Source: Opitutaceae bacterium
GTDB taxonomy: Bacteria; Verrucomicrobiota; Verrucomicrobiia; Opitutales; Opitutaceae
Direction: 5' to 3'
Length of the DNA stretch: 32,108 bases
Assembly (NCBI GenBank): GCA_016794725.1
Contig: JAEUGZ010000594.1
Span: forward strand, 1-32,108
Shown here: positions 22,206 to 27,382 of the stretch, in pieces
Layout: each line of letters begins with the position of its first letter
Position numbering within the stretch: position 1 is the first letter of the stretch
Program-made: the position numbers and the translations under genes
Notes under the pieces: model-generated
Databases searched by the model: none
Told to the model about the DNA's origin: nothing
Seen by the model: the letters and a program-made list of their open reading frames with translations, nothing else

Positions 22206-22290
22206 GGGGCGGGCGGGTCTTCGGGGTGAAGGAAAATAACAGCAAAAGGCAGATGTGCCAGAAAGCAAAAACAAGCCCGAACCGCTCCCC

Positions 22291-22321
22291 GTGCAACCGC
22301 GGTGACATGCCTGCGTTGCAC
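22291..22321. promoter_or_regulatory. Inverted repeat GTGCAAC-N17-GTTGCAC in divergent promoter region
   Basis: Perfect 7-bp arms 17 bp apart lie in the 173-bp gap between the divergently read PSCyt1 gene and the heparinase-like gene, 57 bp before the latter. A related element, GGTTGCGCACC, follows near 22341. The position suits a regulator binding site shared by both directions, but no regulator gene is adjacent. Confidence 0.35.
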
Positions 22322-22378
22322 GCGGATGACCTCACTCGCATGGTTGCGCACCGCTCCGAGTCGGTAATGGTTGGGCCC

Positions 22379-24388
22379 ATGCGTTTGCCCCTTCTCACCT
22401 TGCTGCTGGCGAGTACCCTTGCGCCGATCGATTGTGTCGCCGTCGAGTACCCCAAGCCCCAACCGGAGCGGGTCCTGCCCGAACTCAAGCGCTACGATGC
22501 ACAGGGACACCCCTGGCGCGCCGCGCGCGAGGACTGGGACGGCGCCCGTCTGCGGTGCTCCCAGGATCCGGCCTGGAAGGAGTGGCTGGGCAAGGAACGC
22601 GCCGCCGTCGAGGCCTGGATGGCCCGGCACCGCGACCGGGTCGAATGGGTCGCCGGCTGGTCTCACGACGGCGTCAGTCCGAAGGACGGCTCACGCCTCA
22701 CCTGGACGGAGAAGATTCCGGGCGAGGAGGTGTTTCAATTTTCGAGTCGCTCCGATACCCGGGTCGAAATCACCCCCAAACTCAAGGCCTGGTGGGTCGT
22801 TTCCTTTCGGGATCGTCATGTCGACATGATGCGCCGCGCCGCGCTGCTCCACCGGCTGACCGACGAGGATCGCTTTCGCGACTGGGCGGCCGGGCAGATG
22901 GACTTCTACGCGGACAACTACCTCAAGTGGGAGGTGCAGCGACCCGACCAGGGGGCGCGCCTTTTCTGGCAGTCGCTCACCGAAGCGACCAATCTGGTAA
23001 AATTCACCGAGACCGTTCGGCTGATCGGCGGACGGGTCGCTCCCGAACGCCTCGAGTCCTGGAAAACGAAGTTCTTCCTGCCGGAGGTGCGGGTGCTCAA
23101 TCACAACTTTCAGATCATCCACAACATTGCGGTCTGGCAGCGCTGCGCCGTCGCCCAGGTGGCGCTGCTGTTCGGTGACGACGCGCTGTGGCGCGAGGCC
23201 ATCGACGGCCGGTTCGGCCTGCGTCGCCAGATCGCCGCCGGCATCACCAGCGACTACCTCTGGCACGAACAGTCGTTAGGTTACAATGGATACGTGGTGC
23301 GCGCCCTCGTCCCCCTCTTCGTCGCAGCCGGGCTGCACGGACGGGCCGGCGACCTCGCGACGGAGATGGCGGTGGCCCAGAATCTCCTCCTCGCGCCGCT
23401 GGTCCTCCGGTTCCCCAACGGACAACTGCCCAATCCGGCGGACAACATCGGCATCGGCACCGCCCCCAATCCGGCGCTCTTTTTTGAAGCCTACCGATGC
23501 CTGCCCACCTCGCTCGGGCTTTCGGGCGCGTCCGCGCGTCGCGACTGGGACACGTTGCTGGACCCGCCGGCGGACTTTCCCGCCGGGGTTTCGGTCTTGC
23601 CGGAGGTGACCAGCCGCAGCCTGGAATCGAGCCGCATGGCCGTGCTTCGCTCCGGGCCGTGGCAGGTGTTTTTCCACTACGGTCAGCTGGTGCGGTCGCA
23701 CGCCCAGGCCGAGGCGCTCAACTACTCCGCCTTTCTGGAAGGCACGGATTTCACCCACGACCCGGGTGTCGTGGGCTATGGGTCACCGCTCTATCGCGGC
23801 TATTACACCCGCGGTCTTAACCACAATGTTCCGCTGGTGGGCGGCGAGGGTCAGGAGGGAATCCATCCGGGTGAACTGCTCGGGTTCGAACCCACGCGCG
23901 TCTCCGCGGCCCAGCCGGTCTACCGCAAGGGGGTTCAGGCACGTCGCACGCTGGCAATCGAGTCGGGCTCACTCGTCGACACGGTCGAGGTGGTGCGCTC
24001 CGCGCCCGCCACGGGAGCGCTCGGATTGGCTCTGCACCTGCAGGGGGTGGTGCGCCGCAGTCCGGCCTTTGAGGCCGATCCCGAGTTCGCCCAAGGGCGT
24101 CCGCCCGCCTTCGGATTCTGGCAGGACGTGCGGGTGACGCAGTGCAACCAGACCCTCGAACTCGAGGTCGAAACCGGAGACACCCGGGTGCAGGTGACTG
24201 TATCAGCTCCGGGGATGTTTCGGGTCTGGCAGGGCAGCTCGCCCGACGTTCCGCCCAAGCGCCGCACCAGCCTCTACATTGAATTGAATGACCCCACCCT
24301 GGGTGAAGCCGTCTTTGTCACCCGTTTTTCTCCCCTCAGCCGGAACTATGCATTTGAACCACGAATTGACACGAATCGACACGAATGA
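22379..24388 (+). CDS. Secreted heparinase II/III-like polysaccharide lyase
   Basis: 669 aa from the ATG at 22379 (MRLPLLTLLLASTLAP signal peptide); an ATG 12 bases upstream is equally possible. The N-terminal half is helical, as in the alpha-toroid of these lyases, with VRVLNHNFQIIHNIAVWQ and LWHEQSLGYNGYVVRAL in the expected positions for the catalytic Asn/His/Tyr region. The C-terminal half fits the heparinase II/III beta-sandwich: VRSHAQAEALNYSAFLEGTD, DPGVVGYGS, YYTRGLNHNVPLVGG. Such enzymes cleave uronic-acid polysaccharides such as heparan, alginate and related glycans by beta-elimination. The substrate is not known. The last ten residues (EPRIDTNRHE) and the stop codon come from an interspersed repeat copy, so the original C-terminus may have been altered. 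Confidence 0.85.
   Translation: MRLPLLTLLLASTLAPIDCVAVEYPKPQPERVLPELKRYDAQGHPWRAAREDWDGARLRCSQDPAWKEWLGKERAAVEAWMARHRDRVEWVAGWSHDGVSPKDGSRLTWTEKIPGEEVFQFSSRSDTRVEITPKLKAWWVVSFRDRHVDMMRRAALLHRLTDEDRFRDWAAGQMDFYADNYLKWEVQRPDQGARLFWQSLTEATNLVKFTETVRLIGGRVAPERLESWKTKFFLPEVRVLNHNFQIIHNIAVWQRCAVAQVALLFGDDALWREAIDGRFGLRRQIAAGITSDYLWHEQSLGYNGYVVRALVPLFVAAGLHGRAGDLATEMAVAQNLLLAPLVLRFPNGQLPNPADNIGIGTAPNPALFFEAYRCLPTSLGLSGASARRDWDTLLDPPADFPAGVSVLPEVTSRSLESSRMAVLRSGPWQVFFHYGQLVRSHAQAEALNYSAFLEGTDFTHDPGVVGYGSPLYRGYYTRGLNHNVPLVGGEGQEGIHPGELLGFEPTRVSAAQPVYRKGVQARRTLAIESGSLVDTVEVVRSAPATGALGLALHLQGVVRRSPAFEADPEFAQGRPPAFGFWQDVRVTQCNQTLELEVETGDTRVQVTVSAPGMFRVWQGSSPDVPPKRRTSLYIELNDPTLGEAVFVTRFSPLSRNYAFEPRIDTNRHE
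24357..24386 (-). repeat. Interspersed repeat copy A (three 10-bp units, inverted relative to copies B and C)
   Basis: AACCACGAAT, TGACACGAAT, CGACACGAAT in tandem. It matches the reverse complement of the copy at 24474 at 28 of 30 positions. It forms the 3' end of the lyase gene, and with that copy could fold into a long stem with an 87-base loop. Confidence 0.85.
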
Positions 24389-24473
24389 AAACAGGGACCG
24401 AGAGTTGCGAGGGATTGATTCACACTCTGGGTGAACTCAATTCAGGTACTCGATTCCTCGGATCTCCGTCCGG

Positions 24474-24503
24474 ATTCGTGTCCATTCGTGTCCATTCGTG
24501 GTT
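24474..24503 (+). repeat. Interspersed repeat copy B
   Basis: Three 10-bp units of the ATTCGTGTCC type ending in ATTCGTGGTT. Near-perfect inverse of copy A 87 bp upstream; 26 of 30 positions match copy C. Confidence 0.85.
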
Positions 24504-24691
24504 TCTCGACCGAATGGTTACTAAGGCTAGGGGCTCTTCCCCAGCGCTGAGCCGCACTTCGACTTTGAAAAACACTTTGGACTAGGTCGGACAACGAGAC
24601 CACCCGAGGCGCCGTGCCACTCTGAACAAGAACGATTTGCCGGTCGGTGCAGGCTGCAGCTGCAGATGGTTCAGCACTCGACGGATGGCCC

Positions 24692-24721
24692 ATCCGTGTC
24701 CATCCGTGTACATCCGTGGTT
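24692..24721 (+). repeat. Interspersed repeat copy C
   Basis: Same plan as copy B, but each unit reads ATCCGTG instead of ATTCGTG, a change carried by all three units. One unit in reverse (ACGGATGG at 24681) precedes it, giving an 8-bp-arm hairpin. Confidence 0.85.
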
Positions 24722-24791
24722 GAGAGGCTTGAACGCATTTGCCCTTTCCAAGCCAACGGCACGCGCCACTGTTTCAGTCATCAGTTTGTCC

Positions 24792-25208
24792 ATGAATCTC
24801 GCCACCGCCGAATCTCTCGTCCGCTCCCAGCTCCAGCGCATCGACGCCGTTTACCTGCGGCCGCTCTTTGATGAGTGGGCCATTCTCAGTATTGCTGCGT
24901 CAGGAGTAACCCTTATCGCCTACCAGGGAAAACGGCCCGACACCTACCGCGAACGCCTGCCACAGGACAGCGCTCCGCTGCGGGCGGCCATGGCGCGACG
25001 CAGTTATGCGGTCGGCGATTTCGAGTTCGCCCTCGAAGCCGCCGGAACCGGCTACGATGCCGGCATGAAAATCGGCGAGTCCGCTTACCTGGTGTGCAAC
25101 AACCTCGCCGCCACCATGGACGAGCTGCGCAAGGATCCGCAGTGGCTCAAAGCCCAGGTCCTCTGGTTTGAGCTCGGCGAAAAATTCCGCGCCGACCCGC
25201 TGGTGTAG
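24792..25208 (+). CDS. Conserved-looking 138-aa cytosolic protein of unknown function
   Basis: 138 aa from the ATG at 24792 (MNLATAESLVRSQLQRID). The frame is open further upstream, but only through the interspersed repeat, so the internal ATG is the likely start. No signal peptide or membrane helix. It begins with an amphipathic helix, then a probable strand pair (DEWAILSIAASGVTLIAYQGKR), a basic loop, a second helix-strand unit (RSYAVGDFEFALEAAGTGYDAGMKIGESAYLVCNN) and a charged C-terminal helix. The alternation recalls small alpha/beta folds such as roadblock/LC7, but this is a weak impression and I do not recognise the family. The composition is normal for a coding region of this genome. 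No operon partner is evident. Confidence 0.7.
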   Translation: MNLATAESLVRSQLQRIDAVYLRPLFDEWAILSIAASGVTLIAYQGKRPDTYRERLPQDSAPLRAAMARRSYAVGDFEFALEAAGTGYDAGMKIGESAYLVCNNLAATMDELRKDPQWLKAQVLWFELGEKFRADPLV

Positions 25209-25375: not shown

Positions 25376-27382
25376 ATGCGTTTTTGTTGGAGCGGCTGGA
25401 TTGCGTTTTTGATTTGGGCGCACGCCTCCACCGGTCTGGCTCAGTCCGCATCGTGGAGCGCCTCTGTCTCACCCACGCCCGAGACACTGTGGGGCGTGTG
25501 CTCCGGTCCGCAGGGCTTCGTCGCGGTCGGAGAGAAGGGTGTGATCGTGACCTCGAGCGACGGTGTCACCTGGGTCAGCCGCGCCTCCGGCACCTCCGTC
25601 TGGCTTCTCGCCGTCACCTGGGCCCAAGGCGTCTACCTCGCGGTCGGTGACAACGGCACGCTGCTGGTATCCAGCGATTCTGTCACCTGGCAACTCCGCA
25701 GCACCGGCACCCTCCAGCGGCTGAATGCGATCGTCTTTGGCGACGGCACCTGGGTCATCGCCGGCGAGGCAGGCACCGTGCTGACCTCGCCCGATGGCCT
25801 CGTCTGGACGGTGAACACCGTCGGTGAATCCGTGTGGCTCCGGGGCCTCGCCTACGGCCTCGGCCGCTTTGTCATCAGCGGCCAGCAGGGCCGGATCTAC
25901 GTGACCACCGATCGCGGGCGGAGCTTCACCCGGTCGTTTGCCGCCACCTCGGGTGGACTGGAAGGCGTCGCGTTTGACGGTGAACACTTTCATGTGGTGG
26001 GTGAGGCGTCCTTCCTTGCCTCCTCGGACGACACCACGTTCTGGCGCCGCGACGCGGGTACCGTTCCGAGCCGGCCCAACACCTACCGCGCAGTCACCTC
26101 GTTTGTGGGCGACCGGCTGATTGTCGGTGATACGGCTCACCTGGGCTCCCCTTCGCCTCCTTGGAATGGCACGCCCTATCGGGCCATCGCCGCCAATGAC
26201 CGCCGCGCCGTCGCCGTGGGCCTGGGCGGGGCCATTTCCACCGTCCTTGCTCAAGCTTATCGCACCCGGGTGAGGTTGAGTCTACCCGAAGGTCAGGTGA
26301 TCGGCGCCCCGGCGATCTTCCGCTGCCTCGACGACTTCGGACCCGGCACGCAGTGGCAATGGTACCGCAACCACGACCCCATCACCGGAGCCACGGCGCC
26401 CGAGTACCGCATCGCAGCGATGACTCCCTCCGTGTGGGGCACATACACCGTTCAGGTTACGCGCACCGACGGCGGACCTGCTCCAGACAGGAATAGCGTC
26501 AATCTGCTTCCCCTGCCCGCCCACTTCCCCACCCAGAACGCCGTCGATCCTACGTTTCAGGTCCCCTTCACGTTTGTTCCCCAACTCGTCGTCCCCGCAA
26601 ACGACGGCTCGATCTACGTCGCGGATTCCGATGCGTTTTTTGACATCGACGGTCGTATCCAACACGGAATGGCACGCCTGCGACCGGACGGGTCATTTGA
26701 TCCGTCCTTCAATCTCGGCAGCGGACTTGATGCGGACGGAGCCATCCACCAAATCTACCTGCTCGCTTCCGGCGACGTGGCCATTCGCGGCACCTTCCAG
26801 TCGGTGAATGGCCAGCCGTCGCCCAAGTTCGCCCGACTCAAGGTCGACGGACGCCTCGATGCCGAGTTTCAGCCCGATCCCGAGTTGCGCGAAATGTTGG
26901 GAACGAGATACGTGGCGAAGGGTGATCGATGGATCGTAGCCAGTCACGTTTCCCCTGGGTTCGCATCCGCCGCTCGGTTCGATGCCGAGGGCAAGCTTCA
27001 CGGGCGGACTACATTCGCCGTGCCGACCCAATTCTCGACTAGCCCTCCGCAGTGGCAAGACCGTTGGCTAGAGGACGCCAAAGGGAGATTGTATTTGTTT
27101 GGTTCAATGAATCAGTATAATGACTACTATAATTACCTCATTCGCTTACTGCCAAACGGTGAAAAGGATACAGGCTTTGGAATCTTTGGAACCGTGATTG
27201 GGACTGCCGAGCTGGTTCCCGATGGTCTCCTCGTTTCCAAGAGCGACAGGGGTGGGCGAGTCACCTGGCGTTACGATGGAGAACTCGCCGTCATGGACCT
27301 TGAAACCGGAGAGAAACGCACTTCATTCAGTGCGATAAAGTGGAGCCATGGATTCAATGGCACACAAAGTATTGTGTCCTGA
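25376..27382 (+). CDS. Secreted propeller / Ig-like / delta-60 repeat protein, N-terminal part (frameshifted gene)
   Basis: 668 aa, with a signal peptide (WSGWIAFLIWAHASTGLAQ). Residues of about 35-295 are repeats of roughly 40 residues of the YCF48/BNR type (FVAVGEKGVIVTSSDGVTW, YLAVGDNGTLLVSSDSVTW, WVIAGEAGTVLTSPDGLVW). Residues of about 300-370 look like an Ig-like domain (PAIFRCLDDFG, WQWYRNHDPITGATAPEY, GTYTVQVT). From about residue 400, delta-60-type repeats appear (ARLRPDGSFDPSFNLGSG, ARLKVDGRLDAEFQPDP, IRLLPNGEKDTGFG). The frame then stops shortly after a partial repeat (MDLETGEKRTSFS). Matching repeat sequence and the expected C-terminal domains continue in another frame from 27339, so this is the 5' part of a broken or mis-sequenced gene. 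It is probably a surface or outer-membrane-associated protein. Confidence 0.85.
   Translation: MRFCWSGWIAFLIWAHASTGLAQSASWSASVSPTPETLWGVCSGPQGFVAVGEKGVIVTSSDGVTWVSRASGTSVWLLAVTWAQGVYLAVGDNGTLLVSSDSVTWQLRSTGTLQRLNAIVFGDGTWVIAGEAGTVLTSPDGLVWTVNTVGESVWLRGLAYGLGRFVISGQQGRIYVTTDRGRSFTRSFAATSGGLEGVAFDGEHFHVVGEASFLASSDDTTFWRRDAGTVPSRPNTYRAVTSFVGDRLIVGDTAHLGSPSPPWNGTPYRAIAANDRRAVAVGLGGAISTVLAQAYRTRVRLSLPEGQVIGAPAIFRCLDDFGPGTQWQWYRNHDPITGATAPEYRIAAMTPSVWGTYTVQVTRTDGGPAPDRNSVNLLPLPAHFPTQNAVDPTFQVPFTFVPQLVVPANDGSIYVADSDAFFDIDGRIQHGMARLRPDGSFDPSFNLGSGLDADGAIHQIYLLASGDVAIRGTFQSVNGQPSPKFARLKVDGRLDAEFQPDPELREMLGTRYVAKGDRWIVASHVSPGFASAARFDAEGKLHGRTTFAVPTQFSTSPPQWQDRWLEDAKGRLYLFGSMNQYNDYYNYLIRLLPNGEKDTGFGIFGTVIGTAELVPDGLLVSKSDRGGRVTWRYDGELAVMDLETGEKRTSFSAIKWSHGFNGTQSIVS

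Follow-up and report, generated by a model that had tools for sequence, protein, structure and literature searches.

Gene-less inverted-repeat elements with iterated arms in an Opitutaceae genome and a small nuclease that probably takes part in their movement

The repeat in the stretch of DNA analysed here (the window, 32,108 nucleotides of a contig from an Opitutaceae bacterium) is one copy of a small mobile element, MITE-like and without genes, that numbers in the hundreds. Its two inverted arms consist of short iterated units, and in many bacteria arms of this kind also enclose a lone gene of the GxxExxY family (TIGR04256/PF13366), whose product is, judging from its sequence and a structure model, a PD-(D/E)XK nuclease of about 120 aa with a QxxxY motif. 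This small nuclease probably takes part in moving the arm-bounded elements. Comparison of the sequences leads us to favour, with a probability of roughly 0.6, the reading that the GxxExxY nuclease moves arm elements and that the gene-less window copy was moved in trans.

The window element and its relatives

The three repeat copies described in the original prediction are located at 24357-24386 (minus strand), 24474-24503 (plus) and 24692-24721 (plus). The first two are complementary at 28 of 30 positions, as had been claimed. Between the second and third, the predicted T-to-C change is seen in every unit (positions 3, 13 and 23), and a further difference lies at position 19. Copies one and two form the arms of a whole short element of subfamily A, approximately 190 bp long, that extends from an outer CTCAG (24335-24339) to an outer CTAAG (24521-24525). 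Arm 1 carries CACGAAT cores at 24360-24366, 24370-24376 and 24380-24386, arm 2 carries ATTCGTG cores at 24474-24480, 24484-24490 and 24494-24500, and between them lies an interior of 87 nt (24387-24473) common to other subfamily A copies. The outer end is supported by a pattern match at 24335-24353 and by alignment with 15 other copies. Being a short inverted repeat present in many copies, with terminal inverted repeats and neither a transposase gene nor an ORF of its own, the element is MITE-like. The third arm is of the ATCCGTG type (core CACGGAT); its partner arm is absent from the window, and it is therefore a solo or decayed copy.

A scan of the genome (6.78 Mb in 641 contigs) returned 470 exact matches to the unit pair ATYYGTGTNNATYYGTG, 240 on the forward and 230 on the reverse strand, and none to the reversed pattern. 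The suspicion of a widespread interspersed element was thus well founded, and the notion that only these three copies exist is overturned. Within the window, seven matches with at most two mismatches were found against a shuffle expectation of 0.29, and the six exact ones all lie inside the three copies. Among the matches listed, eight relatives of the window element from its own genome are 84-87% identical over about 186 bp. In 490 kb of this genome, sampled as contigs picked mostly for containing arm matches, 28 facing arm pairs were found, with arms mostly of three units. Across the two arms, these pairs span 142-145 bp in 12 of the 28, mostly with ATTCGTG units (subfamily A), and 116-118 bp in seven, mostly with ATCCGTG units (subfamily B). 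Copies of subfamily A share a conserved interior of about 87 nt and the outer ends CTNAG-CCG(C/G)AACC. Inspection by eye of short element interiors revealed no recognisable remnant of a nuclease gene.

In the congeneric genome G296, the stretch corresponding to 24338-24735 is missing together with all three repeat copies, and 28 bp are found in its place. An upstream ORF at 22226-24388 (plus strand), with a weak heparinase II/III-like match, runs into arm 1 and stops there, such that its last residues are encoded by the element; in G296 the stop codon of the same ORF falls where the extra DNA of the window starts. Iterated arms can also produce false protein starts. A mechanically called ORF at 24666-25208 translates the third arm as SIRVHPWL, while its likely true start is MNLATAES, and the peptide noted earlier is readily accounted for, as ATT CGT GTC CAT TCG TGG TTC translates as IRVHSWF. 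A 668-aa ORF at 25376-27382 with a DUF5122 beta-propeller match bears no relation to the repeats.

GxxExxY genes between iterated arms

The assignment of the arm-linked gene rests on profile matches well above the curated thresholds: proteins P0001-P0003 score 125, 124.5 and 133.7 bits against TIGR04256 (cut-off 35) and 117-130 bits against PF13366 (cut-off 22). Across 19 sequences, the D..ExK..QxxxY pattern keeps D, K, Q and Y without exception and E almost always, P0001 having D in its place. The structure model (pLDDT 97.5) is most similar to 4ic1 (SSO0001; Z 9.7, rmsd 3.5, 97 residues aligned), which we take to be Cas4. Foldseek likewise ranks 4ic1 first, followed by LHK-Exo and lambda exonuclease with weak E-values, and a PDB sequence search with GxxExxY gave no match. 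GxxExxY has its active-site pattern and fold in common with QxxxY nucleases of the Cas4 and lambda-exonuclease type, but differs from them in being a stand-alone domain of about 117 aa encoded between repeats.

The genome carries three GxxExxY genes. One of them, at locus L055, is enclosed by arms with the same unit type as in the window, and a likely start codon falls within the left arm; on inspection, the other two have different iterated flanks. A survey was carried out on 30 loci from the same phylum and 80 named loci (the best 80 of 583) from 18 phyla, two of the 80 being archaeal. Inverted flank matches with a score of at least 20 were detected at 82 of 109 GxxExxY loci (4 of 113 were dropped for short flanks), compared with 7 of 90 at an offset of about 1 kb and 1 of 109 for the best of five shuffles. 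They occur at one or more loci in 14 of the 18 phyla and in none of Chlorobiota, Thermodesulfobacteriota, Sumerlaeota and Cloacimonadota, each represented by one locus; the Sumerlaeota locus does have core arms. Iterated cores of the form C[AG]CN[AG]A[GT] are present in both arms at 65 of 110 loci (3 of 113 dropped), compared with 0 of 90 offset controls and 11 of 110 in the opposite orientation. Among 30 PIN control genes of similar size (PF01850), none reached a flank score of at least 16 and none had core arms. The units in the inverted arms are 8-10 bp long. At 45 of the 110 loci one or both arms lack clean cores. Some of these have other unit types recognised by eye, namely ACAGGATA in L068 and L069 and CCACCCGC in L074, L075, L078 and L084, and at others, for example L135, L149 and L181, no cores were found. 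The last four loci with a unit type of their own (L074, L075, L078 and L084) make up a GxxExxY subgroup whose element ends start with ACCACCCGC and are not simple iterated cores.

Unit sequence and spacing follow the nuclease clade. Core position 7 is T (CRCNRAT) in all 25 scorable relatives of the L055 protein and G (CRCNRAG) at all 64 other GxxExxY loci, and the spacing in arms of L055 relatives is 10 bp in 104 of 106 steps. The relatives comprise 30 loci including L055 itself; left out of the 25 are L259, which is almost the same as L258, and loci lacking a clean pair of arms, while L138, which encodes the same protein as L060, was kept among the 64 loci and removed before the 64-protein tree was built. 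The search query contained residues translated from its own arm, possibly favouring loci with such arms, and 20 lower-ranked loci were therefore checked. At 12 of these the match starts at residue 15 or later, beyond most of the arm; eight of the 12 have cores (T alone in seven, T and G twice each in L297), and no cores were found at the other four (L290, L292-L294). The remaining eight loci have T, with one G core of six in L305, and some of the 20 show 9-bp or mixed 9/10-bp spacing. In trees based on about 115 columns, with many forks unresolved, core positions 4-5 require 7 changes on the subclade tree versus 10.9 when shuffled (1/2000), the full core 11 versus 13.95 (18/2000), and unit type on the 64-protein tree 26 versus 31.8 (1/500). 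Core position 2 clusters on neither tree.

The abundance of arms is likewise linked to the clade. Of 288 sampled genomes of this phylum, 163 have a GxxExxY match, and 43 have a hit to the L055 clade at E <= 1.6e-30, a limit chosen after the search result had been seen. The arm pattern, which covers CAC cores only and hence undercounts CGC-type genomes, has a median of 43 matches in these 43 genomes versus 0 in the 245 others (p=3e-18, kinship between genomes ignored). Arm matches are absent from 2 of 43 versus 143 of 245 genomes and number at least 10 in 31 of 43 versus 38 of 245, and 5 of the 245 without a close clade hit reach at least 40. The reversed pattern occurs 0 to 5 times per genome among the genomes listed.

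The original prediction suggested that units are homogenised or amplified within a copy. The units of one element do tend to be identical, but copying of whole units finds no support. Unit identity in GxxExxY loci is 0.67 within an arm and 0.63 between arms, compared with 0.24 for random pairs. For core positions 4-5, 86% of unit comparisons agree in 76 arms of this genome and 78% in 64 subclade arms, while the two linkers of one arm agree in just 11% and 14%, respectively; whole-unit copying would carry the linkers along. At three orthologous copies in the murA-ruvB gap, the differences are single-unit changes. Concerted change thus looks more like the result of a shared recognised core than of slippage or homogenisation in place.

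Movement of the elements and its possible agents

The arm-gene-arm structure at L055 is an insertion into a tight gap. Nine congeners were searched, of which G290 gave no match, and in all eight holding the site it is empty of both arms and gene, with 4 to 11 bases separating the stop codon from the next start codon. The gap between murA and ruvB (gene names assigned by eye) provides a second case. Among 15 genomes of one genus, 13 have the site (L058, L208-L219); it is empty in five and holds a GxxExxY element in three, and the short elements in the other five genomes represent three further unit families (one, two and two genomes). One of these families has AATGACCA-type units. On a larger scale, a protein from the window's phylum is 82% identical to a Bacteroidota protein (L073 and L139), which is compatible with transfer between phyla.

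Because unit type co-varies with nuclease clade, we infer that the nuclease binds and cuts at the arms. Acting as a multimer, it would recognise cores in both arms and cut there or close by; host repair or replication would then finish the transposition, and copies without a gene, the window element among them, would be mobilised in trans. All units of an element would change together since a single specificity reads them all, and the linkers would be free to vary. Several observations speak against this model: one matched gene at L055 faces hundreds of arm matches in the genome; subfamilies A and B have extra outer ends with possible target duplications; the short interiors do not look like gene remnants; 38 of 245 genomes lacking a close clade hit nevertheless contain at least 10 arm matches; two clean core arms are missing at 45 of 110 GxxExxY loci, and cores at 4 of the 20 lower-ranked loci; core position 2 fails to track the tree; and a second gene family also has arms (see below).

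The outer ends are the basis of a different explanation, according to which the elements are ordinary MITEs whose mover is a DDE transposase, presumably IS5/IS1031-like and targeting CTNAG, and the iterated arms are passengers in longer terminal repeats. The outer end CTNAGCCGSAACCATKCAG has 84 sites with at most three mismatches versus 18 for the reversed pattern, identical CTNAG flanks both sides in 6 of 10 pairs (p 0.047 against 0.3) and in 8 of 18 pairs of a wider set, and subfamily A is a unit of about 190 bp with a conserved interior. In three cases (L337, L339, L340) a subfamily B copy is nested in subfamily A beside an A arm, in both orientations and adjoining, as judged by eye, repeated ATGAA/TTCAT. 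However, the window copy is not among the matching pairs, its own two CTNAG ends being unlike each other (CTCAG and CTAAG). The same arms bracket GxxExxY genes in other genomes without the outer ends of subfamilies A and B, and L055 itself has arms as in the window but lacks outer CTNAG. In addition, no plus/minus pair of ends 0.8-2 kb apart, as expected of an autonomous element, was seen by eye among the sites listed, which lie on short contigs, and a DDE transposase leaves unaccounted for that arm number and unit type both track the nuclease clade. We regard this explanation as rather unlikely when taken by itself; a combination, in which the arms are generally of the nuclease type and were amplified locally by a DDE enzyme in this genome, may apply.

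Three further explanations have much lower probability. GxxExxY could be a homing endonuclease, inserting into arm elements that owe their spread to another agent, in keeping with a lone small nuclease gene and with gene-less elements vastly outnumbering gene-bearing ones. The empty L055 sites have no arms, which means either a joint arrival of arms and gene or a clean loss of the arms; homing into pre-existing arms is disfavoured by these sites, and we consider it improbable. About equally improbable, perhaps slightly more so, is a role of the arms as RNA, with transcribed long hairpins being cut as in 23S intervening sequences (IVS). The predicted fold of 24335-24525 is stable (-79 kcal/mol, z -6.3), at 51 of 96 loci the longest frames to either side share the direction of GxxExxY, and the 28-bp terminal stem of the Coxiella IVS is described as cut by RNase III (PMC4990558). 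A selected RNA stem was nonetheless rejected, given compensatory change in just 1 of 30 predicted pairs among 13 copies (L341, L342 and L346, which differed in the alignment, were omitted). Between facing arms, the linkers match at rates of 0.42 and 0.27 in clade elements and of 0.83 and 0.00 in this genome, and Rfam gave no matches for the window, L055, L258, L058, L242 and L247. Finally, the repeats are abundant, intergenic and palindromic and occur as inverted pairs, like the REP/BIME elements moved by RAYT (Y1 transposase), and a REP-associated transposase had been proposed as one link to look for. The genome has three Y1_Tnp genes, none of which has arms within the 2.2-3.3 kb around it; the arm-linked gene encodes the GxxExxY nuclease instead, and three-unit iterated arms set the window element apart from REP/BIME. 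Mobilisation by RAYT is accordingly the most remote of the candidates, with hardly any likelihood.

A second gene family and kindred elements

Iterated arms at genes of the TIGR02436 family (four-helix-bundle or 23S-IVS proteins) had been predicted beforehand from 'junk peptides'. Of 30 such loci (L227-L256), 20 have a flank score of at least 20, compared with 2 of 30 at an offset and 0 of 30 shuffled; the units, judged by eye, are approximately 7-8 bp long and of many sequences. The architecture is therefore not tied to one enzyme. It is tempting to generalise and to see in GxxExxY nucleases, whether or not host repair assists them, a new class of mobility enzyme, about 120 aa long and Cas4-like, acting on ends that are arrays of about three identical sites, with site sequence and spacing rewritten as the nuclease evolves. 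The unrelated four-helix-bundle proteins of the 23S IVS would use the same end architecture, and many intergenic 'junk-peptide' repeats found in bacteria and archaea would belong to one element superfamily. We put this broader view forward tentatively, at somewhat less than even odds.

Small elements bounded by inverted repeats, whether empty or carrying a single gene, are of an already known kind. The 23S rRNA IVS with its S23p ORF resembles the GxxExxY elements in that its long terminal inverted repeats enclose a single short ORF. In the parts of the Coxiella burnetii report relevant here, the IVS is described as a selfish element, and its origin is called unclear (PMC4990558). It differs in encoding another protein, in sitting in rRNA and in a 28-bp stem that those parts do not describe as iterated units (PMC4990558), whereas the window element is intergenic, without an ORF, and the whole window has no Rfam match. 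As the IVS ORF family occurs with iterated arms outside rRNA in this phylum, in elements built alike, the origin of 23S intervening sequences becomes testable. The MITEs of Thiomargarita nelsonii are, like the window element, short, non-coding and present in many copies with inverted ends; in the section of that study used here they are linked to PD-(D/E)XK_2 genes, and a parent element containing PD-(D/E)XK is suggested (PMC4853749). They belong with the PDDEXK_2 family, and the same section does not describe their 19-bp inverted repeats as iterated (PMC4853749). Unlike in these MITEs, unit type in the elements described here goes with the nuclease clade. A search of the open PMC literature, which covers no bioRxiv and few subscription papers, yielded no description of GxxExxY genes flanked by iterated repeats. 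If the nuclease moves the elements, they would be a new kind of mobile element. A common, uncharacterised nuclease family gains a genomic context and a testable role, as do short repeats that are read as protein ends, and the naturally occurring combinations of clade and site type offer a way to learn how a nuclease of this sort recognises DNA.

With respect to the vertical history of single insertions, inheritance at an aldehyde-dehydrogenase-like site was considered and set aside, the six loci concerned (L257-L260, L270, L273) not forming one clade on a tree with weak supports. Several operon gaps are occupied by GxxExxY elements in more than one genus (gene names by eye): gatA/gatB (L064, L067, L072, L085), a pyruvate dehydrogenase-like gap (L068, L069), the aldehyde dehydrogenase-like gap and the gap upstream of purH (L268, L269, L274).
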